Shown one piece after another: positions 544 through 25,702 of a stretch of 64,000 bases of DNA (its first letter is position 1; every line of letters begins with the position of its first letter). The DNA comes from Fodinibius salicampi (lineage in GTDB: Bacteria; Bacteroidota; Rhodothermia; Balneolales; Balneolaceae): contig NZ_BAABRS010000003.1 of the NCBI RefSeq assembly GCF_039545095.1, positions 434,001 through 498,000 on the forward strand. The letters run 5' to 3'. The position numbers and the translations under genes are program-made. The notes below the pieces were generated by a model that was not told where the DNA came from, did no database searches, and was given only the letters and a program-made list of their open reading frames with translations.

Positions 544-559
544 AACTAATTGGTTAGTT
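544..559. promoter_or_regulatory. Inverted repeat resembling the TetR operator found at 17616 and 21048
   Basis: The arms AACTAA and TTAGTT flank TTGG, giving 15/16 identity to the element at 21048-21063. It lies between two convergent genes rather than in front of one. Its regulatory role is doubtful, and it could be a chance AT-rich palindrome or a weak hairpin. Confidence 0.25.
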
Positions 560-644
560 AACTGCTAAAATGCTCCTTGTATAAACATAAGCTCAATTTT
601 TCATCCTACTCCATCACACAGAAAGCAAATAAAGCAATGGGTAT

Positions 645-2648: not shown

Positions 2649-2890
2649 CAATTATTTTGCACTTTTAGGAAACGTTCACACTGGAGGTTAAGAAATAAAA
2701 TACAAGTTTATAGTGCCACTTTAAGACTAAAATCATCCATCTATAACTAATTAGAATGATCAAAACTTTGTCTGAGAAAACGGAAAAGGAAAAAGATAAG
2801 GAATACAATTCAAAGCCCTAATTTCTCTCCTTGTTATATAATTGCCCAGACTTCAGTTTTTCTTCAAAATTATCCCTTATGTTATGTATT

Positions 2891-3577
2891 ATGAAACTTT
2901 TGATCATTGAAGACAACGAGGATTTACTGGAAAACATTCGTACTTACTTGAAACGGGAAGGCTATATCTGTGAGGCTGCCCGTGATTACAGTGAAGCGTT
3001 CGATAAGGTCATGTCATACACTTACGATGTCGTGCTGATCGACATAATGATTCCCGGCGGTTCGGGTCTACAAGTTTTGAGGGAACTAAAATCGGTCAAT
3101 CCTAAAACGGGTACCATTATTATATCAGCTAAAAATGCCCTTGATGATAAAATAGAAGGTTTGGAGCTTGGAGCCGATGACTACATAACCAAGCCCTTTC
3201 AGCTCCCGGAACTACATGCACGTATTAAAGCAGTAAACCGCAGGAATCAACGGGGCGGACAAGAAATCCTTAATGTTAATGAAATATCTATCAATACCGA
3301 TACCATGGAGGTAACGGTGGACGGTACGCCCGTGGATCTTACACCCAAGGAATATGATCTGATGCTCTATTTCGCCTCCAATAAAAATCACGTATTGTCA
3401 AAACAAACCATTGCCGAACATCTTTGGGGCGATTATGTTGATCATCTTACAAACCTCGATTTTGTCTATCAGCACATTAAAAACCTGCGCAAAAAGCTGG
3501 AAGAGGCCGGGGCCAATAATTATATAAAGAGTGTTTATGGCATAGGGTACAAATTTAAGGTAAATAATCACGCATGA
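2891..3577 (+). CDS. OmpR/PhoB-family response regulator
   Basis: The protein has 228 residues. The receiver domain has the acidic pocket EDNED near residue 7, phospho-acceptor Asp51 and Lys101 in ITKPF. A winged-helix Trans_reg_C DNA-binding domain follows, with the LTPKEYDLM block and the terminal VYGIGYKF block. The ATG at 2891 is chosen because the receiver fold begins immediately after it; an upstream in-frame TTG at 2831 would add 20 unlikely residues. The stop overlaps the start of the next gene by 4 bases (ATGA), so regulator and kinase are translationally coupled. The target genes are unknown; the TonB receptor starting at 5003 is the nearest downstream candidate. Confidence 0.93.
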   Translation: MKLLIIEDNEDLLENIRTYLKREGYICEAARDYSEAFDKVMSYTYDVVLIDIMIPGGSGLQVLRELKSVNPKTGTIIISAKNALDDKIEGLELGADDYITKPFQLPELHARIKAVNRRNQRGGQEILNVNEISINTDTMEVTVDGTPVDLTPKEYDLMLYFASNKNHVLSKQTIAEHLWGDYVDHLTNLDFVYQHIKNLRKKLEEAGANNYIKSVYGIGYKFKVNNHA

Positions 3578-4836
3578 AGCTGATCACGAAATTTATACTG
3601 ATCTATCTCTTTGTGACGGTCATTGTTTTAGGTATAGGGGGATATCTCTCGTATTTCATCATTAAAGGTGAACTGAACAATGAACTCAAATGGCGTTTTC
3701 TGGACCACATTGACCGGGTAACCTATCTTTTGGAGAGGGGGAAGGACTTTAATTCTAAAAAAGTAAACCATTCCGGAGACCGTAATCTTGAAATTAGGCC
3801 CTTATCTGTTCAACGAGAACCTGATATTATTGTAAAAGATACGATGGTGTGGCATGAGCGGCTCCAACAAATGGAACCGAATCTTAAAATGACGGCTTAC
3901 CGCACAGTGGATGATACTACCTATTATATTTCTACCCATGGGGCCCTTGTAGAATCCGATGACATCACGGAAGCGGTTGTCCAGATTTTGCTCTGGATTT
4001 TAGGCATGCAGGTTATTGGTGCTATTGGTGTTGGATTTATTGTATCCAACCGGCTGTTCAAACCTTTCCGAAATACGCTTGATCAAATTAAGTCGTTTAA
4101 TCTGCAGGATAAGGAACCCATTACTGCCCAGGAAACAAATGTAACGGAGTTTGATGACCTCAACCATTTTGTAGAAGAGATGACCCGCAAAGCCGTTGCT
4201 GACTATAAAAACCTCAAAGAATTTGCTGAAAACGCTTCTCATGAGCTTCAAACACCTTTATCTATTGTTAAAGGAAAGTTAGAACTCCTCACTGAAACCG
4301 ATCTTAGTCCTGAGCAATATCAGTATGTGGAAGCGAGTCACCGCTCTATTAAAAAGCTTTCCCGCCTCAGTGAATCACTGGCGTTACTTACAAAAATTGA
4401 AAATCATGAGTTCACACAAAAAGATGAGGTTAATTTTACAAAACTCATCCAAGATAGCACCCAGGCTTTTGAAGAGTTTATAAAACTCAATGGATTAGAA
4501 GTTGAGGCCGATCTTAAGGAAGAAGTTACTCTGCAAATCCATTCGGTGTTAGCTGATATTTTATGGACCAATCTCTTCCAAAACGCAATAAAACATAATA
4601 TAGAAGATGGTCGAATCAAGATTGAGCTTACGGAAGACTTTCTAAGAATTTCTAATACCGGTCGTCCCCTTGATGATGATCCGCATATACTATTCGAACG
4701 TTTCAAAAAAGCCGATCACAGTAATGAATCTATTGGACTGGGCTTAGCTATTATAAAGCAGATTGCTGAGCAAAATGACTATTCTATCTCTTATGATTAT
4801 AAAGATAAATGGCATACCATTACCATTGAATTTTAA
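3574..4836 (+). CDS. Membrane sensor histidine kinase, partner of the preceding regulator
   Basis: The protein has 420 residues. A membrane helix at about 5-30 is followed by an extracytoplasmic sensor region to about residue 135, a second helix at about 138-160, and a HAMP-like linker. The HisKA domain carries His223 in SHELQTPL. The HATPase_c domain has the N-box LFQNAIKHN and the glycine block SIGLGLAI. It would phosphorylate the OmpR-type regulator encoded 4 bases upstream. Compared with textbook kinases the G1 box is short (RISNTGRPL). The signal sensed is not evident from the sequence. Confidence 0.93.
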   Translation: MKLITKFILIYLFVTVIVLGIGGYLSYFIIKGELNNELKWRFLDHIDRVTYLLERGKDFNSKKVNHSGDRNLEIRPLSVQREPDIIVKDTMVWHERLQQMEPNLKMTAYRTVDDTTYYISTHGALVESDDITEAVVQILLWILGMQVIGAIGVGFIVSNRLFKPFRNTLDQIKSFNLQDKEPITAQETNVTEFDDLNHFVEEMTRKAVADYKNLKEFAENASHELQTPLSIVKGKLELLTETDLSPEQYQYVEASHRSIKKLSRLSESLALLTKIENHEFTQKDEVNFTKLIQDSTQAFEEFIKLNGLEVEADLKEEVTLQIHSVLADILWTNLFQNAIKHNIEDGRIKIELTEDFLRISNTGRPLDDDPHILFERFKKADHSNESIGLGLAIIKQIAEQNDYSISYDYKDKWHTITIEF

Positions 4837-5002
4837 GAGCTGTAAAAAGACCCTATGACGGATGTAAATTCTTGTTAGAAAAAGCATCATTTATCTCTTC
4901 TTCAAATTTCCTTCAGCTTTAATACAACCTTTGCATAAGATGGTCCCTTAAGTTAAGTGCAAAGCAACAAAGTAATCCCAAACTATTTATTAAATATTAA
5001 AG

Positions 5003-7447
5003 ATGAAGAAGTTAATATCATTATTTGTTTTCACATTCTTGATAACCTCTCTTGCCATCGGACAATCCGATGAAGGCATTATTACCGGAGAAGTTTATGA
5101 CCAACAGGAAGATCCTGTGCCTTCCGCTTCTGTATCGGTTTATGATTCTACCGAAACCAATGTGGTAACGGGAACTCCCACAGATTCTACAGGTGCATTT
5201 AGTGTAGATGTAGATCCGGGTACCTACATATTAAAAATTACTTTTTTGTCCCTATCTCCACACACCCAAAGGGTAGAAATAAACGCCGGGGAAACGGAAG
5301 ATATAGGAAGCGTAACTCTAACGTCCACTTCCCAGAAAATGGATGAGGTTGTAGTGCGTGGCGAAAGCTCCCAGATGGAAATGAGTTTTGATCGCCGCGT
5401 TTTTAATGTCGGACGTGATATTACCAGTCTGGGCGGTTCAGCTGTAAATGTGCTTGACAATGTACCCTCTATCGCTACTGATATAGAAGGAAATATAAGT
5501 CTTCGGGGAAATGAGTCTGTACGAATACTTATCAATGGCAAGCCCTCTAGTATGGTTGGTAGTGGCAACGTGGATGCCCTGCGAAGCATTCCCGCCACAA
5601 TGATTAAAAGTGTTGAAATTATCACGAATCCTTCTTCAAAATATGCCGCGGAAGGTTCCGGAGGTATTATCAATATTATTCTTACAGATAATCGAGAACT
5701 CGGACTTAATGGTAGTGCCAACGTAGGCACCGGGTATCCAGAAGAATATGAGGGTTCAATAAATTTAAATTACCGTACTCCTAATGTTAATTGGTTTGCT
5801 GATATTGGTGGAGATTACCGATCTGAACCGGAGTCCGGAAACTCTTTTCAACGATTCTCAGGTCCGGACACTACTTATATGTATCGTGAACGAACGGATG
5901 CCAGCGAATCAGAAATTGATGGTGACTTTCGCTTTGGGGCGGACTTTTACCTCTCCGATAATGAGATTTTAACCGCCAGTAGCTATATTAGTCTTGAGGA
6001 AGAAACCAATAATGAAGATATCTTTTATACCGATTTAGAATATTCCCAAGGTGCACGCGACGGTAATGTACTTGGACGTATTAATCGAGACACGGAGGAA
6101 GAAGCAAATGAAAGTAATTTTGATTTTAATCTCGATTATGAAAACGAAATTGATGGCAATGATGACCATAAGTTAGTAGCTGATGCCAGCTTTGACATTA
6201 GCCGTGAAAACGCTCAAACGAATATTGAAGAAATCACACAAGAAGGCTCAGGTGACCTTCTCGAACAACGAAGTAAAGACACAGAAGAGGAAATGGATTT
6301 CCGGTTTAATGCCGAGTATGAACGTCCCCTGGGGGAAGAGGGAAAACTGGAAGCCGGTCTTCGCAGCGATACTGAATGGATGGATACCGGTTATAATGCC
6401 GAAACTCTTGTTGATGGTACTTGGGAAACAGAACCAGCTTATACTCAAAACTTCCTCTATCGCGAAAATGTAAATGCGGCCTTTCTCATTCTGGGCGGAG
6501 AATTTGGGGACTTTTCCGGACAGGTTGGCTTGCGCGCTGAAAACACAAATATCCGAACCGAAATTAAAGAAACCGGTGATGTAAATAACCAAAATTATAT
6601 TGGGCTGTTCCCTAGTGCCTTCTTAAACTATTCATTTAATGATCAGCAATCGGTACAATTGAGCTATAGTCGCAGATTGCAACGGCCGTGGTCCCGCTCC
6701 TTACTTCCGGGTATAGATTTCGATGATAACCGCAGCCAGTTTACCGGGAATCCGAGCCTTACTCCAGAATACAGTAATTCATATGAAGCTGGATACCTGC
6801 ATTACTGGGAAAGTGGCTCACTTCTTACTAGCTTTTATTATCGATATCGCACGGACGTGATTGAAGATATAACGGAGCAAAGAGATGGGGTACAATTCCG
6901 GTTCCCAATTAACTTTGCCAATGAAGAAGCGTGGGGCGTTGAGTTTTCAGCAGACCAAGAAATTGCAGATCGATTGACCTTAACTGGAAATGCCAATCTT
7001 TTCCAATCAAATACAAATGGAAGCTATCGTGAGGGCACCGCTGAAGAAATAATATTAAGCAGCGAATCGGGAAATTTTCAGGCTCGCATGCGTCTCCGGT
7101 GGGAAATTGTAGACGGCTTAAATTATCAGGCTTCTATGCGATATCGAGGTCCAAGCAACACGCCACAGGGAACTCGCAATGGTATGACCATGATGGATAG
7201 CGGTATTTCCTATGATATACTTGAAGAAAAAGCAAAAATCACCTTCAATGTAAGAGATGTCTTTAATGCCCAGAACTTTAATAATACGGTAACTACGGAC
7301 GGAAATCCCAATACCGACTTCTATTCTCAGCGCGAATTCAGCTGGTCTACTCGTACCTTCTCACTTAACTTCCAGTATTTCTTTGGAAATACAGAAAGTC
7401 GCAGAGGTGGAGGCGGTGGGCCCGGTGGACCAGGTGGTCGCGACTAA
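5003..7447 (+). CDS. TonB-dependent outer-membrane receptor with carboxypeptidase-regulatory-like N-terminal domain
   Basis: The protein has 814 residues. A signal peptide (about 1-20) precedes a CarboxypepD_reg-like beta domain (about 24-110). The plug domain contains LDNVPSI and the SIPATMIKSVEIITNPSS block, and the C-terminal part is an outer-membrane beta-barrel of the TonB_dep_Rec_3 type. The family moves substrates across the outer membrane using TonB energy. The protein ends in an unusual glycine/proline-rich tail (RRGGGGGPGGPGGRD) after the last predicted strand, so the usual terminal aromatic is not at the C-terminus. The substrate cannot be predicted. It follows the two-component operon by 166 bases; an AACCTTTG sequence near 4927 is one base off the Bacteroidota -7 consensus. 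Confidence 0.9.
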   Translation: MKKLISLFVFTFLITSLAIGQSDEGIITGEVYDQQEDPVPSASVSVYDSTETNVVTGTPTDSTGAFSVDVDPGTYILKITFLSLSPHTQRVEINAGETEDIGSVTLTSTSQKMDEVVVRGESSQMEMSFDRRVFNVGRDITSLGGSAVNVLDNVPSIATDIEGNISLRGNESVRILINGKPSSMVGSGNVDALRSIPATMIKSVEIITNPSSKYAAEGSGGIINIILTDNRELGLNGSANVGTGYPEEYEGSINLNYRTPNVNWFADIGGDYRSEPESGNSFQRFSGPDTTYMYRERTDASESEIDGDFRFGADFYLSDNEILTASSYISLEEETNNEDIFYTDLEYSQGARDGNVLGRINRDTEEEANESNFDFNLDYENEIDGNDDHKLVADASFDISRENAQTNIEEITQEGSGDLLEQRSKDTEEEMDFRFNAEYERPLGEEGKLEAGLRSDTEWMDTGYNAETLVDGTWETEPAYTQNFLYRENVNAAFLILGGEFGDFSGQVGLRAENTNIRTEIKETGDVNNQNYIGLFPSAFLNYSFNDQQSVQLSYSRRLQRPWSRSLLPGIDFDDNRSQFTGNPSLTPEYSNSYEAGYLHYWESGSLLTSFYYRYRTDVIEDITEQRDGVQFRFPINFANEEAWGVEFSADQEIADRLTLTGNANLFQSNTNGSYREGTAEEIILSSESGNFQARMRLRWEIVDGLNYQASMRYRGPSNTPQGTRNGMTMMDSGISYDILEEKAKITFNVRDVFNAQNFNNTVTTDGNPNTDFYSQREFSWSTRTFSLNFQYFFGNTESRRGGGGGPGGPGGRD

Positions 7448-16942: not shown

Positions 16943-17548
16943 TTAAGACGTCAGCCAGTTTAAAACAGTATCTAAAACAATTCCTTTCCGATCTGTAGCA
17001 CTTCGGACTAGACCAGGCTTATTGGGTAACATCGCATTATGTACAGGGAACGCGAGTGTTGGATAATAACACAGCGAAAAAATATTAAGAAGCAGCTGTT
17101 CCGGCTCTACTGAAGTAATCAAATAGTCTGAGGCTGCTTCCTCAATTTGACTTTTCAGTACATCACTGTCCAGGGAAACTTGCTCTTTAAAAAGTGGAAT
17201 GAGCCAATCCGGGTTACGTCGGCTTTCTGTAATAATGAACCCCAAAGCCTCGGAATGGTCATCGGCCCTTTGCAGGCAAAAATCGATAAATTGCTCAATT
17301 TTTTTAAAAATAGGGATATCTTCTTCCAGCTTTTCTGATAAACCATCAAACACGGTAACTACAGACTGAGCGTATACATGTTCAAACAGCTCTTTCTTGG
17401 TATTAAAATAATAGTGAATCATTGCCTGAGATACTCCTATATGATCGGAAATATTTTTCATGCGGGCCCCCTCGTATCCCCGGGCTAAAAATTCTGTCCT
17501 AGCAGCGTTAATAATCTCTGATCGGCTTCCCGACTTGCTTTCCGGCAT
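16943..17548 (-). CDS. TetR/AcrR-family transcriptional repressor
   Basis: The protein has 201 residues. The N-terminal helix-turn-helix of the TetR_N type spans about residues 10-56, with the FLARGYEGARMKNISDHIGVS block and the recognition block MIHYYFNTKKELFEHVY. The C-terminal ligand domain is all-helical and unrecognised. The gene is followed by a convergent PLP decarboxylase and has a long AT-rich upstream region. A 16-bp inverted repeat at 17616-17631 overlaps a perfect TAGTTTTG -7 box in its own promoter. An almost identical copy lies upstream of the RND efflux operon at 21048. Autoregulation and control of that pump are inferred from this match. Confidence 0.92.
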   Translation of the reverse strand: MPESKSGSRSEIINAARTEFLARGYEGARMKNISDHIGVSQAMIHYYFNTKKELFEHVYAQSVVTVFDGLSEKLEEDIPIFKKIEQFIDFCLQRADDHSEALGFIITESRRNPDWLIPLFKEQVSLDSDVLKSQIEEAASDYLITSVEPEQLLLNIFSLCYYPTLAFPVHNAMLPNKPGLVRSATDRKGIVLDTVLNWLTS

Positions 17549-17615
17549 AATATTAATTAGTTAGTTAATAATAATCAGCTCCAGTTAATATAGATTATAC
17601 AAGAGAACTAAACAA

Positions 17616-17631
17616 AACTAATTGATTAATT
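17616..17631. promoter_or_regulatory. Candidate TetR operator in the tetR-like promoter
   Basis: The imperfect inverted repeat has arms AACTAAT and ATTAATT around TG. It matches 15 of 16 bases of the element at 21048-21063. On the minus strand it runs directly into TAGTTTTG, an exact Bacteroidota -7 box, about 70 bases before the regulator start. A related, poorer repeat lies at 17552-17570 next to the start codon. Confidence 0.6.
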
Positions 17632-17758
17632 AATATTGACTGTACTAATTATTGAAAGCATTCAAAGAAATGCGGCAAGTTGCTTAATTACTATTGAATT
17701 AAGATTATTCCTGCACCGCTATTGCTTCCGAAGTCCTTTTTGATATCTTATTAATAGT

Positions 17759-19063
17759 ATGAAACAAACGCTGATCATAACACTCCTTTTTTCTATAACC
17801 ACTATTGCCAGTGGCCAGCAGGATACCCCTGCCGTTAACAATGAAGCAACTTCCGCGCCTACCATCATGATGATTGCTGTGGATGGTTCTATCTCTCCGA
17901 CCACTACGAACTATATAAACCGTGCTATTGCAAAAGCCCGGGAACAGCAGGCCGAAGCGCTTATTATTCAGTTGGATACGCCCGGCGGATTGCTGGAATC
18001 AACCAAGAATATTGTTCAGGTATTTCTGGACTCCGATAATCTTCCAATTATTGTCTATGTAGCGCCTGAAGGCGGGCGAGCGGCCAGTGCCGGTACATTC
18101 ATTACCATGGCTGCCCATATCGCTGCCATGGCCCCAGCTACGACCATTGGGGCGGCATCTCCTGTACAGATGGGAGGTGGACAGCAAGATTCGGTAATGC
18201 AGAAGAAAATATTTAACTATTCAGAAAGCTTTATTGAAAGTGTGGCAAACCGGCGTGACCGGAACGCCGAGTGGGCAAAGTCCGCTGTACGTGACGGCGA
18301 ATCCATTACCGCTGAGGAAGCCCTCAAACTCAATGTTATTGATTTTATCTCCAATGATCGGGATGAGCTGCTCAAACAGATTGATGGACGAGTTGTGAAT
18401 GGGGATACTCTACAAACCCGAAACGCTACCATTGAAGAAATTCCTACTAATTTAGCCGAAAATCTCCTGAGCTTCATTATGCGTCCTGAAGTGATGCTCA
18501 TTCTCACTATGATTGCCATTTACGGTATCATTGGAGAGGTTACGAATCCCGGTGCCATCGTCCCGGGCGTGGCAGGCGTTATCGCACTGATACTGGTACT
18601 TTATGCCTCGGCTTCCATGCCGATTAATATCGCAGGGTTTGCACTCATTGGTTTAGCGATTGTTCTTTTTGTTGCCGAAGCGTTTACTCCGGCCTTTGGT
18701 ATTCTCATTGGGGGTGGGGCAGTTGCATTTTTTCTTGGGGCGCTCATGCTATTCCAGGATTTGCCTCAATCGATGGAACTTTCCTGGGCATGGCTCGTCC
18801 CGGCCACCGTATTAACAACCCTGTTTTTTGTCTGGATTGTCACCGAGGGAATCCGCATACAGTTTTCCAATAACGTCACCGGAAAAGAGTCAATGGTTGG
18901 GCGTAAGGGGGAGATCATCGAATCTATTAAGGATGGAAAAGGACGAATTTTTGTTAACGGGGAATACTGGAATGCAGTAAGCGATGAAGAAATTAAGGAA
19001 GGAGAAGTTTGCGAAATCGTTGAGATTGAAGGCCTTACGGCCAAGGTAAAGCGCAGCACATAA
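17759..19063 (+). CDS. nfeD: NfeD-family protein with ClpP-like serine protease domain
   Basis: The protein has 434 residues, the long NfeD form. A signal peptide (about 1-19) leads into a ClpP-class periplasmic protease domain (about 35-230) with the catalytic-Ser block AASAGTFITM and a DTPGG oxyanion block. About four to five membrane segments follow (about 235-370). The protein ends in a soluble OB-fold NfeD domain with GRKGEIIE and FVNGEYWNA. The family works with SPFH proteins in membrane quality control; the slipin partner starts 28 bases downstream. The region upstream is shared with the divergent tetR-like gene, so regulation by that protein is possible but has no direct support. Confidence 0.93.
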   Translation: MKQTLIITLLFSITTIASGQQDTPAVNNEATSAPTIMMIAVDGSISPTTTNYINRAIAKAREQQAEALIIQLDTPGGLLESTKNIVQVFLDSDNLPIIVYVAPEGGRAASAGTFITMAAHIAAMAPATTIGAASPVQMGGGQQDSVMQKKIFNYSESFIESVANRRDRNAEWAKSAVRDGESITAEEALKLNVIDFISNDRDELLKQIDGRVVNGDTLQTRNATIEEIPTNLAENLLSFIMRPEVMLILTMIAIYGIIGEVTNPGAIVPGVAGVIALILVLYASASMPINIAGFALIGLAIVLFVAEAFTPAFGILIGGGAVAFFLGALMLFQDLPQSMELSWAWLVPATVLTTLFFVWIVTEGIRIQFSNNVTGKESMVGRKGEIIESIKDGKGRIFVNGEYWNAVSDEEIKEGEVCEIVEIEGLTAKVKRST

Positions 19064-19091
19064 TCAACACCAATAAAGTTTACATACTATC

Positions 19092-19922
19092 ATGGAAAAT
19101 GGAGATCAATTTATCAATTCTCTTACATGGATTATCACCATCGCTGTTCTGGCAGCTATTCTTCTGCCTCAGATGTTCAAAATTTTGAGGGAATATGAAC
19201 GGGCCGTTGTTTTTCGGTTGGGTAAATACCAGGGCACAAAAGGACCGGGACTTATTGTCCTTATTCCCTTTATCGATAAGATAGAACGAGTGGATCTTAG
19301 GGTTCTTACCATTAATGTGGACCGGCAGGAAGTTATCACCAAAGATAATGTTACGGTACACGTAGATGCAATTACGTTCTTTCGTGTTATTGATGCCGAG
19401 GATGCCGTTATACAGGTAGAACAATACATTCACGCAACGTCGATGCTCGCTCAAACTACCCTGCGTAGTATAGTGGGACAGGTTGAACTGGATGAATTGC
19501 TGGCGGAACGTGAAAAGGTCAATAAAAATATTCAAGAAATTATTGACCGTCAGACAGATCCCTGGGGTATCAAGGTGGTCTCGGTAGAAGTCCGCGATGT
19601 AGTCTTACCTGAAAATATGAAACGTGCGATGGCCCGACAGGCTGAAACCGAGCGCGAACGTAGAGCGAAAGTGATTAACGCCGAAGGTGAGTTCCAGGCC
19701 GCTGAGCGTCTCGTTGAAGCTGCTACTATGATGAAAGAAGCTCCGATGGCCCTGCAACTCCGTTTCCTGCAAACAATGACCGATATCAGTGAAGAGAATG
19801 CAACCTTCGCATTTATCCCGCTGCCTATGGAGATGCTCGAAGTCTTTAAAAATATGTCTGGCGTACAGCTGCCTCCGGAAGTCGACGGAAATGATGGAGA
19901 CAGCTCTGACAATGAATCTTAA
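19092..19922 (+). CDS. Slipin (stomatin/prohibitin-like SPFH protein)
   Basis: The protein has 276 residues. One N-terminal membrane anchor (about 11-30) is followed by the SPFH band-7 domain, beginning EYERAVVFRLGKYQGTKGPG and containing DRQEVITKDNVTV. A coiled-coil region (about 180-235; MARQAETERERRAKVI) precedes a hydrophobic C-terminal stretch and an acidic tail. Slipins oligomerise at the inner membrane, and their C-terminus is a known substrate of NfeD-type proteases (family knowledge). The spacing of 28 bases after nfeD indicates one operon. A short hairpin (AAAGTAG/CTACTTT, 19928-19948) separates it from the next gene. Confidence 0.94.
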   Translation: MENGDQFINSLTWIITIAVLAAILLPQMFKILREYERAVVFRLGKYQGTKGPGLIVLIPFIDKIERVDLRVLTINVDRQEVITKDNVTVHVDAITFFRVIDAEDAVIQVEQYIHATSMLAQTTLRSIVGQVELDELLAEREKVNKNIQEIIDRQTDPWGIKVVSVEVRDVVLPENMKRAMARQAETERERRAKVINAEGEFQAAERLVEAATMMKEAPMALQLRFLQTMTDISEENATFAFIPLPMEMLEVFKNMSGVQLPPEVDGNDGDSSDNES

Positions 19923-19969
19923 TAACTAAAGTAGTTTAACTCTACTTTATCTGATATAAATATAAACTT

Positions 19970-20977
19970 ATGGGAAAAGAACGGAATATTCGCTGGGGGA
20001 TTTTAAGCACCGCTAAAATTGGAGTTGAAAAAGTTATTCCCGCTATGCAGCAGGCCGATAACTGTGAAATTGTGGCTATTTCATCTCGAAGCGTCAAACG
20101 GGCAAAAGAAGCAGCCGATAAATTGGGAATCGGACAAGCTGTGGGATCGTACGAAGAATTGCTGGATCTCCCTGACATTGATGCTGTTTATAATCCGCTC
20201 CCTAATCACCTGCACGTTCCTTGGTCCATAAAAGCCTTACGGGCGGGTAAGCATGTGCTTTGCGAAAAACCCATAGGGCTGTCCTATAAAGAAGCGGAAA
20301 CGCTCCTGGCCGAAGCCGAGAGGCATCAAGAACTAAAAATAATGGAAGCCTTTATGTACCGGCATCATCCCCGGTGGATCAAAGTTAAGGAGCTGATACA
20401 AAAGGAGGCTATTGGCAAACTGCAAACCGTACAATCCTTCTTTTCCTATTACAATGTTGATCCTGAAAATATTCGCAATATATCCGATATTGGAGGTGGA
20501 AGTCTGATGGATATTGGTTGTTACTGTATTTCCGTTCCCCGGTTTTTATTTGATGAAGAACCCAAGTCGGTCATAGGGAGTCTGGAAGAAGATCCAAACC
20601 TCAATATAGATCGGCTGTCGTCGGGAATACTGAACTTCCCCAGCGGTTCTGCCACGTTTACAAGCGGTACCCAGCTGGCTCCTCATCAAAAAGTAAAAAT
20701 ATTTGGGAGCAAGGGAATGATTGAGCTCTCCATGCCTTTTAATGCCCCCACTGATGAACCGACCTATATTCATATACAGATCGAAGGCAAAGATCATACT
20801 ACAGAAATCGCTCCCTGTAATCAGTTTACCGCTCAGGGAGAACGATTCTCACAAGCCATTATTGAGGACCGTCCCGTTCCAACTCCTTTCGAGGATGCTT
20901 TGAAAAACATGCAAGTTATCGATGCCATTATCGAGAGCAGCATAAGTAATGCAAAAATTACCATGACTAATCTTTAA
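19970..20977 (+). CDS. Gfo/Idh/MocA-family NAD(P)-dependent oxidoreductase
   Basis: The protein has 335 residues. The Rossmann domain begins IRWGILSTAKIGVEKVIPAM. The conserved GKHVLCEKPIG block near residue 90 contains the EKP motif, and a MEAFMYRHHPRW block is present. The C-terminal dimerisation domain has GGGSLMDIGCYCI, which contains the family catalytic Asp/His-type region. The family oxidises or reduces sugars, inositols and related compounds, and dihydrodiol dehydrogenase-like members have the same MYRHHP block. It follows the slipin gene by 47 bases and may be a separate transcript. The substrate is not inferable. Confidence 0.9.
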   Translation: MGKERNIRWGILSTAKIGVEKVIPAMQQADNCEIVAISSRSVKRAKEAADKLGIGQAVGSYEELLDLPDIDAVYNPLPNHLHVPWSIKALRAGKHVLCEKPIGLSYKEAETLLAEAERHQELKIMEAFMYRHHPRWIKVKELIQKEAIGKLQTVQSFFSYYNVDPENIRNISDIGGGSLMDIGCYCISVPRFLFDEEPKSVIGSLEEDPNLNIDRLSSGILNFPSGSATFTSGTQLAPHQKVKIFGSKGMIELSMPFNAPTDEPTYIHIQIEGKDHTTEIAPCNQFTAQGERFSQAIIEDRPVPTPFEDALKNMQVIDAIIESSISNAKITMTNL

Positions 20978-21047
20978 GCACTAAGTAAGCAACCTGATAT
21001 AGAGAACAAAAACATCTTTTTATCGTTAATTAGGATATTCTATAGTT

Positions 21048-21063
21048 AACTAATTGATTAGTT
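21048..21063. promoter_or_regulatory. Candidate TetR operator upstream of the RND efflux operon
   Basis: A perfect inverted repeat has arms AACTAAT and ATTAGTT around TG and is extended by flanking TTA and TA. It is 190 bases upstream of the adaptor-protein start. It overlaps a poor -7-like sequence (TAGTTTAT) in the same relative position as the tetR-like copy at 17616, where the box is exact. Confidence 0.6.
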
Positions 21064-21252
21064 TATTTACTATTCGTTAAATCTGTCCTCGCTCTAACAG
21101 TGGATAACCTATCCCCTTCAAGATTCCTTCAGGATTATCACATATCATATCTGCTAACAACTTATTACAACTATAAACGAACGTTTTCTCCTAAGGTTTC
21201 TATTTTCTAATACTATATGCAGTTGAGCAATCATTAATTCTACACTTGCAAA

Positions 21253-22554
21253 ATGAAAAAGCTTTTGATCAATTTTTTTAAACCAATCACAATTCTATTC
21301 GCGGTTACTCTACTTGTTACAGGCTGCTCGGGAGAAAATACAGAAAGTTCAGGAGGAGATGCAGGTGAAACAGCCTCTGTAACCCCTGCTGTTGAAGCGG
21401 TAAAGGCGCGGTATGGGTCCCTTCCCCTTTCAGAACGATTAAGCGGAACCGTTGTAGCGGACAACCAAGTCGTTTTGTATCCGGAAATTTCCGGGCGTAT
21501 TACACAGGTCCACGTCCGTACGGGTGATAACGTACAAAAGGGTGATCCTCTTGTATCGCTTGAGGATAAACAGTACCAGGAACAAGTAGAGCAGGCCCGG
21601 GCCAACCTTAAGATTAACCAAGCCCAATTAAAGCAGGCCCAAGCCCAATACCGCGAGCTTGAATCTGAATACCGTAGAACGCGGCAGCTTAGTGAAAAGG
21701 AACTCTCCAGTGATCTCGAAATGGAACGCATGGAGGCTCAGATGGAATCCGCAGAAGCAGATGTAGAACTTGCAGAAGCCCAGGTTGAACAGGCGCAGTC
21801 TACTTTGGAAGAACGTCAGGAAATGCTGTCACAGACTGTTGTGAGAGCCCCCATTACCGGAACTGTGGGTCAACGCAATGCAGAAATGGGGATGCAGGTT
21901 GGCTCCAATACACAATTGTTTACGATTGGAGACTTAGACAATCTCCGAGTTGAGGTAGTACTAACCGACAATATGCTCAACGACATATCTGTTGGACAAA
22001 CCGCTAATATCCATGTAGGCGATCAAGTTATCGAAGCTGGACTTTCTCGTATTTCTCCTTTTCTAAATAATGTTACCCGAAGCACGGAGGGCGAAATTGA
22101 TGTAGAGAATGAAAATAACATTCTACGTCCGGGTATGTTTGTCCCAGTTGATATCCTATATGGAGAAAGTCAGCAAGCCACATTAATTCCTACCAGCGGC
22201 CTCTATTCCGATCCGAATACGGGCAATGCCGGAGTATATGTAGCAACTTCTCTTGGAAGCGAAATCCAGCCGGCTGAGCAAGTAAACGCTGATAATCCTC
22301 CTCCTCTTACGGAAGCCACAGAAGTACAATTCAGGGAAGTAGACGTTATCGCTGAAGGTCGCATGGAGGTAGCAGTGGATGGCGTTGAACCCGGCGACTG
22401 GGTCGTAATTGTTGGTCAGGATTTGCTATCGGAAGGACGAAACCAGGCTCGCGTTCGAACCAGTTCTTGGGAACGCATTCTGGCCATGCAGGGGATGCAA
22501 AGACAAGACCTGCTACAGCGTGTACTGGATAGCATCCAGACAGCTAATGAATAA
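21253..22554 (+). CDS. RND efflux periplasmic adaptor (membrane fusion) lipoprotein
   Basis: The protein has 433 residues. A signal sequence ends in lipobox LVTGC (Cys25), giving a lipid anchor in the inner membrane. The barrel-sandwich (biotinyl-lipoyl-like) half begins EISGRITQVHVRTGDNVQKG near residue 78, is followed by a long alpha-hairpin coiled coil (about 108-190, rich in Gln, Glu and Ala), and closes with VRAPITGTVGQRNAEMGMQV. Beta-barrel and membrane-proximal domains follow. It links the inner-membrane pump encoded 31 bases downstream to an outer-membrane channel. No TolC-like gene lies in this operon, so the channel must be encoded elsewhere. Confidence 0.94.
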   Translation: MKKLLINFFKPITILFAVTLLVTGCSGENTESSGGDAGETASVTPAVEAVKARYGSLPLSERLSGTVVADNQVVLYPEISGRITQVHVRTGDNVQKGDPLVSLEDKQYQEQVEQARANLKINQAQLKQAQAQYRELESEYRRTRQLSEKELSSDLEMERMEAQMESAEADVELAEAQVEQAQSTLEERQEMLSQTVVRAPITGTVGQRNAEMGMQVGSNTQLFTIGDLDNLRVEVVLTDNMLNDISVGQTANIHVGDQVIEAGLSRISPFLNNVTRSTEGEIDVENENNILRPGMFVPVDILYGESQQATLIPTSGLYSDPNTGNAGVYVATSLGSEIQPAEQVNADNPPPLTEATEVQFREVDVIAEGRMEVAVDGVEPGDWVVIVGQDLLSEGRNQARVRTSSWERILAMQGMQRQDLLQRVLDSIQTANE

Positions 22555-22585: not shown

Positions 22586-25500
22586 ATGAAAATTACCGAA
22601 ACTGCTGTCAATCGTCCGATCGCCACAACGATGTTGTTTCTCATCATCATCGTGCTGGGTGTTATGTCATTTCGATATCTGCCTATTGATCTTCTCCCCC
22701 CTGTAGAATATCCACAGCTAACCGTAGCAACGGAATACCCGAATGTAGGGCCGGAAGAAATAGAAAAAATTATAACCCAGCGGATTGAAAATACCATTGC
22801 TGGAGTGCCTGGTGTTGAGCGCGTTAGATCAAGCTCTTCTGAAGGACAAAGCCGCGTGACTTTAGAGTTTACACAAGGTACAGATATTGACGTCGCTGCC
22901 AATGATATACGTGCCGCCCTGGACCGGATCCGGGATGAACTCCCACCCGAGGCACAAGCTCCGCGTATATGGAAGTTTGATCCGAATAACTTCCCGGTAG
23001 TCATTGTAGGAGCTAATTCTGACAAAAACCTGCAGGAACTGACCCAGCTGCTGGAACGCGAGGTTACCAAACAGTTTGAACAGATCCCGGGGGTTGGCTC
23101 TATTGATATATGGGGCGGAGTCTACAGAGAAGTTCACATAGAGCTCAAGCGGGATCGGTTAATTGCCAGTGGACTTTCATCAGCCCAGGTACAACAAGCT
23201 ATTGCCAGCGAGAATGTTAACTTGCCCGGTGGCAACGTTAATTCAGGTATTCAGCAACTCTATGTCCGTACATTAGGCGAATATGAATCACTCGATCAAA
23301 TTTCGAATACCATTATCACTACGGTTGAAGGCAAACCAATTAGAGTGAAAGATGTGGCCGAAGTAAAATGGGGGTATGAAGACCTCAATCGCCTGGTAAC
23401 TATTGACGGAAAACCAATGGTTCGCTTTGGGATTCGAAAACAAACCGGGGCTAATACCGTTGCAGTAGCAGAAAATATTCGCAATGAAATTGAGCGGGTT
23501 AACGAGCAACGTGATGACATGGAGCTCTTTGTCACCACCGACCAGAGTGAATTTATCCAAAGTTCCATTGATAATGTTCAAAACTCAGCCGTTTGGGGAG
23601 CTTTACTTGCTATATTTGTATTATATCTCTTTCTCAGGAATGGATCTTCTACTTTCATTATTGCAATAGCAATACCCATATCTATTATTGCCACTTTTGC
23701 CTTGCTGTACTTTAACGGGCTAACCTTAAACCAAATGAGTTTCGGGGGACTCGCTTTAGGAGTTGGGCTTATTGTGGATAACGCCATTGTGGTCCTCGAA
23801 AATATAATACGTCTCAGGGAGGAACGTGGAAAAGACCTAAAGGCCAGTGCCTTGGTCGGAACCCGGGAAGTAGGTGGGGCTATTATCGCTTCTACTATCA
23901 CCACTTCTGTTATCTTTCTGCCAGTCGTATTTATGCAAACGATTTCCGGTACGATCTTCCAGCAACTTGCTCTTGTTGTGGTCTTTGCCTTGGTTTGCTC
24001 CCTCTTTGTTGCGTTAACGCTGGTTCCCATGCTCTGCAGTAAATTTCTTACGGTACAGCCGGAAAAGTCAGAAAAAGCGCAAAAGAAAAACTGGTTCCAG
24101 CGTTACTTCCAGAAGCTGGAAAATAATTATACCGATTTTATTAGCTATACACTGGGGAGGAAAGGATGGGTATTTGGCATCACCGGGGTATTGGTTATCG
24201 GATCCTTTTTACTCATTCCTATCATTCCCGTTGAACTGGCCCCGCAATCGGATGCTGATGAAATAGATGTAGACTTTATGATGGCAGAGGGCACTAATAT
24301 TGCGGTTCAAAACGAATACCTTCAGGAACTTGAAAAAGTAGTACGCGCAAACCTACCCATGGACGATGTCGACCATCTTACCACGGACGTTCGTGACGGT
24401 CGTGCTGAAGTTGAAATTTCCATGGTTAATGCTTCTGAACGGTCACAAAGCACTTCGAAAATTGCAGATCAGCTTCGCGAAAAAGTAGCCGGCACAATTC
24501 CGGGTGGAGATATTCGCGTAAGTGCTCAATCGGGGCTATGGATTTTGCGTCGGCTGTTTGGATCCGGGGGAGGAGAAGCCGTGGAAGTACAGCTCAGGGG
24601 TTATAACTTGGATCAGGCCCAGAAAATCTCCCAGGAAATTAAACTGCGTATGGAAGAAATCCCAGAAGTTTCGGGTGTTCGGGTTGACCGCAGAGAGGGT
24701 CGGCCTGAAGAAAACATGACCTTTGACCGGGAAAAAATAGCAGATCTTGGCCTCACTGTAAGTGAAGTAGCCCGGGTCATCCAAACAAATATAGGCGGCA
24801 GCAGGGCCGGAACGTACCGTGTAGGAGGAGATGAGTTTCCGATAAATGTCCGGCTCCAGCCTGATGACCGTCTAAGCACGACTGATCTTGATAACATTTC
24901 CATCCGGGCAGCGAACGGAGAGGTATTACCTATATCGGCTGTTGTCTCACAAAAGAAGGGCCGGGGACCTACGGATATCAACCGTATAAACAGTCAGCGC
25001 GTGTCGTATATCTCGGCAAATTTGGAAAGCGGAGTTGCCTTGGGGGAAGCAGTCGAAAAGATTCAGGCTAAACTCTCCGATGTACCGCTGCCCGATGGTT
25101 TTTCTATAGTATACAGTGGTGAATATGAAGAGCAGCAGAAAGCAGCTGCTGATTTTCAACTTTCCATAATTATGGCACTGATACTTATCTATATGGTTAT
25201 GGCAGCCCAGTTTGAGCGTTTCTTTGATCCGCTGGTTGTTATGTTTTCAGTACCGCTTGCCGTTATTGGGGTTGTTCCAACGCTTCTGATTACGGGCACA
25301 ACTATCAATATGCAGAGCATGATGGGGATCGTGATGCTCATAGGTATTGTAGTAAATAATGCGATTGTACTGGTAGACTATATCAACCTGATGCGAAGAG
25401 AGCACGGCATGAACGTCCGGGAAGCTGTTATCTATTCTGGAAAGCTCCGCCTGCGTCCTATACTAATGACTACACTTACCACTGTCTTAGGATTATTACC

Positions 25501-25702
25501 GTTATCATTTGGAGTAGGAGCGGGAGCCGAAATACAGGCATCCCTGGCACGTGTAGTTATTGGCGGGCTTACAGCCTCAACCCTGATTACACTGGTATTC
25601 ATCCCGGTTGTATATGTCTCTGCCGAACAATTCCTTGCCCGCGTCCGCAGTAAAAACTGGATCCCGTTCACTAACGAAAGTGTGAGTCCCGCAAAGGCTT
25701 AA
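22586..25702 (+). CDS. RND-family efflux permease (AcrB/HAE1 type)
   Basis: The protein has 1038 residues, the full family length. It has twelve membrane segments in two symmetric halves, each with a large periplasmic porter/docking loop. The N-terminus [14 protein letters not shown] and the proton-relay segment of helix 4 ([20 protein letters not shown]) are typical of HAE1 proteins. The second half repeats the pattern with [21 protein letters not shown]. The pump exports drugs or other amphiphiles by proton antiport as a trimer. It is co-transcribed with the adaptor and followed by a hairpin at 25772. The candidate TetR operator at 21048 suggests inducible expression. Confidence 0.95.

Follow-up and report, generated by a model that had tools for sequence, protein, structure and literature searches.

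A putative TetR operator motif in Fodinibius and its species-specific copy upstream of an RND efflux operon

A 64,000-nucleotide stretch of the Fodinibius salicampi genome (G000, 3.94 Mb; positions 434,001-498,000 of contig C3, hereafter the window) carries a gene for a TetR/AcrR-family regulator (tetR) and, 3.4 kb away, an operon for an RND efflux pump, both preceded by copies of one 16-bp sequence that an earlier note on this DNA had taken for a shared operator. I find that the sequence belongs to a motif present before tetR in all same-genus genomes compared, and that the copy at the pump is found in this species only. The element conserved at the pump is a different one, the direct repeat TTCAnnnTTnCTTCA. 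I favour, with a probability of roughly 0.6, the reading that TetR is an autorepressor and that a species-specific site at the pump has been added to an ancestral control by an OmpR-type response regulator and its PorY-family kinase. Features and their coordinates are collected in Table 1.

The comparison covered 11 genomes of the same genus and the family member G021, in addition to F. salicampi. An orthologue of tetR with 40-60% identity is present in 11/11 and in G021, and within about 40 nt upstream of it each of the 13 genomes has a palindrome close to AACTAANNNNTTAGTT, with at most one mismatch in 11 genomes and with two in F. salicampi and G001. Scored with leave-one-out matrices, these tetR-proximal sites reach 18.7-27.1 bits, and no position in 101 kb of the relatives' other loci reaches 15 bits. 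The operator motif derived independently from the same TetR lineage in other genomes, YTAACTAAyynwTTAGTT, is fitted by both of the 16-mers first noticed, AACTAATTGATTAATT at 17616 and AACTAATTGATTAGTT at 21048, which lie where they were placed and differ by one base. By this comparative evidence the predicted operator motif is real.

Taken alone, a plain count of 16-mer matches is weak: the window holds 8 strand matches with at most three mismatches where 2.8 are expected, and a count of 8 is reached in 2 of 100 shuffles. Adding the relatives makes the case strong. The main scoring matrix, trained on the tetR sites of the 12 relatives with the F. salicampi genome excluded, finds four places above 20 bits in the window (544, 21046, 17616 and 17551), the best separate place outside the motif scoring 9.6 bits, and a chance origin of the four is ruled out by these scores. 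A fifth copy, at C3:432375, lies 1.6 kb to the left of the window and scores 21.5 bits. This copy, the second site at tetR (17551-17566) and the copy at 544-559 (one mismatch) had all been overlooked. When the entire genome was searched with YTAACTAAYYNWTTAGTT allowing one mismatch, only four places were returned, all of them in C3:432-455 kb around tetR. At two mismatches the search gave 26 strand matches vs 33 with the reversed pattern, which is the level of chance, so only the top sites carry meaning. The flanks of the five sites are unlike one another (12-17 of 40 positions identical; null mean 13.6, 95% 18), so an origin by copying of a single DNA segment is ruled out.

Autoregulation is the well-supported part of the prediction. 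An alignment of the 13 tetR upstream regions places a TTG-N20-TA(nn)TT promoter between two operator sites, P and D, whose centres are 65 nt apart. P lies between this promoter and the ATG, at the same place in 13/13 genomes, and G013 likewise has an operator before its truncated tetR. D lies just upstream of the -33 element; it scores at least 15 bits in four of the 13 genomes (F. salicampi, G001, G003 and G021), 11.1-13.1 bits in four more and less than 10 in the remaining five. TetR would bind P, between the TTG-N20-TATATT promoter and the start codon, and in its own genome D as well; autorepression would be the natural reading of this layout. The alignment also moves an element: TAGTTTTG, formerly called the -7 box of the regulator, is indeed present (17613-17620, minus strand), at the -33 position, and the -7 element is TATATTAA. 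The site at tetR's own promoter is what would assign all sites to this TetR and not to a paralogue.

The gene identities given in the earlier note are borne out, the regulator by the TetR_N domain in Pfam and the adaptor and permease of the pump by Pfam and NCBIfam. The alignment of the TetR protein matches solved TetR-family structures (95 sequences, E 1e-5 or better), and its scores fall below every NCBIfam equivalog cut-off (AcrR, 23.4 vs 271; MtrR, 24.7 vs 280). Its recognition-helix region (17405-17434, minus strand) reads VSQAMIHYYF, where 12/12 relatives have (V/A)TKAMIHYYF.

The pump site is another matter. A close orthologue of the adaptor gene (63-71%) occurs in 11 of 13 relatives examined, with distant ones only in G004 and G010. 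Within 400 nt upstream of the pump gene, the span to which all statements on absence of the site in relatives refer, the best matrix scores in these 11 are 0.9-11.7 bits vs 23.4 in F. salicampi; further out, 1,285 nt before the adaptor gene, G008 has a match with one mismatch. The earlier note had claimed that TetR controls the pump and had proposed conservation as a check. The part that stands is that the pump site matches the motif of this TetR lineage; the repeat is missing upstream of the pump in 11/11 relatives that keep both genes, and conserved control of the pump by TetR is thereby ruled out. This absence, an outcome that the note itself had named as refuting, refutes a conserved circuit. 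A working site in F. salicampi is still compatible with it, since the matrix that gave 23.4 bits never saw that genome. Control of the pump by TetR would be at most species-specific.

A rival reading, along the lines of the earlier note, is that TetR directly represses the RND operon, as AcrR, MtrR or TtgR do, by occluding the pump promoter from the shared operator. The two genes do have an operator in common 3.4 kb apart, the matrix score at the pump is high, and tetR, NfeD and the pump are neighbours in most relatives. I nevertheless consider direct repression unlikely: the site is missing in all 11 relatives, G004 and G010 retain tetR and its operator without a close pump orthologue, and the F. 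salicampi site does not overlap the conserved pump promoter but precedes it. Some 53 nt separate its end from the direct-repeat box downstream, and it lies about 93-110 nt upstream of the inferred pump start, so that simple occlusion is unlikely. The poorer box named earlier at this copy, TAGTTTAT, is found at 21059-21066. The hallmark of a local pump repressor, an operator on the pump promoter that is kept with the pump, is thus absent here (0/11 relatives; own site upstream of the inferred promoter).

Alignment of the pump upstream regions shows that the conserved element is the direct repeat TTCAnnnTTnCTTCA, of which the window has three exact copies (2852-2866, 4901-4915 and 21117-21131) vs 0.08 expected. 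One precedes the pump, one the gene of the OmpR-type response regulator, and one an outer-membrane beta-barrel gene. With up to three mismatches the pattern is found upstream of the pump in 10/10 same-genus genomes that have the pump, F. salicampi included. With at most one, it precedes the response regulator gene in F. salicampi and 6/6 relatives, a count restricted to those whose loci extend far enough upstream (in two more the locus ended too early), and the outer-membrane gene in F. salicampi and 5/5. Given that the box is conserved both at the pump and at the regulator's promoter, the two-component system is probably the genus-wide, ancestral controller of the pump and the TetR site a species-specific addition.

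In the autorepressor reading, then, a further operator copy would have arisen upstream of the RND operon in F. salicampi only, and the pump may have become, or may yet become, a TetR target. The pump would have been driven ancestrally, and probably still is here, by the OmpR-type regulator and PorY kinase through the direct repeat, and TetR sitting upstream of that box would modulate the pump promoter rather than occlude it. Binding, the sign of regulation and the pairing of each protein with its box are read here from the sequence elements and their conservation.

What, then, of the other copies? Those at the pump, at 544 and at C3:432375 might all be functionless, as decoys or chance gains, with TetR regulating itself and targets elsewhere. 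None of the three is conserved, the 544 copy lies between convergent 3' ends, and the best conserved non-self site among relatives is the one that 9/14 genomes have in front of a 2-oxoacid dehydrogenase E2 gene. Such a view seems to me rather unlikely, as chance gain would have had to place three non-self sites no more than 20 kb from tetR in a genome of 3.94 Mb, for which random placement gives about 1e-6 (a figure computed after the sites had been seen). It is possible, if tentative, that the operator arose independently at each of these three places, no others of equal stringency having appeared elsewhere in the genome, and that a pump governed by a two-component system in the other members of the genus thereby gained a TetR input; the regulon would then have grown locally, around the gene of its regulator.

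No counterpart of the 544 copy is found just downstream of fetB in 11/11 relatives that have fetB. Among 12 peptidase and 11 fetB loci, matches with at most two mismatches occur at one place in G010, picked up in both sets, and at one in G003, neither at the positions seen in F. salicampi; conserved sites at the peptidase, at fetAB or at the fetB 3' end are thereby ruled out. The 544 copy is the highest-scoring of the five, and it lies between convergent gene ends, where no promoter is expected. Between the C3:432375 site and fetA lies what may be a decayed DoxX-like reading frame.

The relatives have copies of their own, which recur at orthologous places. The one upstream of the E2 gene scores at least 18.4 bits, lies about 120-160 nt before the gene (L354-L361 and L367) and stands just above a promoter-like block that is almost invariant, TATTTTGATCTAATC..CATTTAT. 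Two glyoxalase-fold dioxygenase genes stand in tandem, and in 5/14 genomes the motif immediately precedes the second of them. Copies between such tandem genes are seen at L123, L128, L296 and L306, where the operon also includes an Oxidored_FMN gene and a carboxylesterase gene and may have a function like Mhq-type quinone detoxification; this signal is trusted less because the end of the preceding coding sequence contributes part of it. Among the genomes covered for these loci, G004, G009 and G010 also have the motif before a PNP-family gene, and several have it near adenylate kinase (adk), F. salicampi with a weaker copy there. The motif-bearing genes other than the pump might conceivably share a role in electrophile stress. 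F. salicampi lacks the E2 and dioxygenase copies. As the copies differ between this genome and its relatives, the set of targets appears to turn over between species.

The E2 copies also bear on the idea that the palindromes are RNA hairpins, acting as terminators or leader structures, and not protein operators. Several copies do fall at the 3' ends of genes or within 5' leaders, and the folding energy is -5.8 kcal/mol (z -2.58) for the one at 544. For the four further copies tested, however, it is -0.5 to -4.2 kcal/mol (z 0.11 to -1.64), and the E2 copies lie upstream of a conserved promoter-like block, so that I regard hairpins as very improbable.

Several observations weigh against autorepression with an added pump site. 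The pump site is in no relative, with 0/11 having a match of at most one mismatch, and the sites at 544 and C3:432375 are also private to F. salicampi, so private sites need not be functional. The motif recurs at unrelated genes in relatives and so is not pump-specific. Another TetR paralogue could share the same motif, as the genome has five TetR-like matches, this TetR counted. On the side of the two-component system, the box pattern is found at the pump in 0/2 relatives outside the genus, the pump box of F. salicampi, TTCAAGATTCCTTCAGGAT, is less perfect than those of its relatives, and the link from regulator to box would be drawn from shared promoters only.

Table 1. Features in and beside the window (positions are those of the window unless given on contig C3; bit scores of operator sites are from the relatives-only matrix).
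Feature	Position	Strand	Evidence or context
Operator P, TTAACTAACTAATTAATA, directly before tetR ATG	17551-17568	-	20.6 bits
Operator D, TTAATTAATCAATTAGTT (first repeat copy of the earlier note)	17616-17633	-	21.3 bits
tetR -7 element, TATATTAA	17585-17592	-	Aligned TTG-N20-TAnnTT promoter of relatives
tetR -33 TTG, within TAGTTTTG	17613-17615	-	Aligned promoter of relatives
TetR/AcrR-family regulator, 201 aa	16943-17548	-	Pfam TetR_N, E 1.4e-12, 47.6 bits, cut-off 24
Operator-like site upstream of pump, TTAACTAATTGATTAGTT (second repeat copy of the earlier note)	21046-21063	+	23.4 bits
Putative response-regulator box at pump, direct repeat TTCAAGATTCCTTCA	21117-21131	+	Pump upstream alignment
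Inferred pump -7 region, TATCATATC, 11 nt past box	21143-21151	+	Alignment of relatives' pump promoters
RND periplasmic adaptor (MFP)	21253-22554	+	NCBIfam RND_mfp, 177.9 bits, cut-off 94.9
RND permease (ACR_tran)	22586-25702	+	Pfam, E 1.4e-267
Box TTCAGTTTTTCTTCA, 24 nt before response regulator ATG	2852-2866	+	Pattern match, relatives' promoters
OmpR-type response regulator	2891-3577	+	Pfam Response_reg, Trans_reg_C
PorY-family sensor histidine kinase	3574-4836	+	NCBIfam NF052314, 410.8 bits, cut-off 350
Same box before outer-membrane beta-barrel gene (5003-7447)	4901-4915	+	Gene family by Pfam
Third operator-like site, TTAACTAACCAATTAGTT, at convergent 3' ends of fetB and Kef-like antiporter gene	544-561	-	26.9 bits
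Operator copy between S9 peptidase gene and divergent fetAB	C3:432373-432392 (L054:8373-8392)		About 145 nt upstream of peptidase gene
NfeD1b protein, divergent from tetR	17759-19063	+	Pfam
Slipin/SPFH protein	19092-19922	+	Pfam Band_7
Gfo/Idh/MocA oxidoreductase	19970-20977	+	Pfam

The tetR and NfeD genes form a divergent, adjacent pair in most relatives. Taken as a whole, the protein is probably an autoregulator of the ordinary TetR kind, with a regulon that changes and a modest evolutionary twist. For a so far uncharacterised lineage of TetR proteins in Fodinibius (Balneolaceae), the analysis supplies an operator motif that can be tested, and it separates two possible layers of pump control, a genus-wide box of the response-regulator type and a species-specific repressor site. 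It also illustrates that even when a repeat shared within one genome proves to be a true regulator motif, it may reveal little about the conserved circuit.

AcrR, MtrR and TtgR are local TetR-type repressors of RND pumps. Like them, the present protein is a TetR_N regulator, probably autoregulated, with an operator also near an RND operon. Unlike them, its gene is separated from the pump by three genes and the operator at the pump is not conserved; unlike AcrR and MtrR in particular, it falls far under the cut-offs of both models. BaeSR, CusRS and AdeRS are OmpR/PhoB-family systems that control RND pumps. The predicted two-component layer resembles these in that the regulator's promoter and that of the pump, which lie in one neighbourhood, both carry a direct-repeat box, and differs from them in that the partner kinase is of the PorY family and an outer-membrane beta-barrel gene is a predicted shared target.

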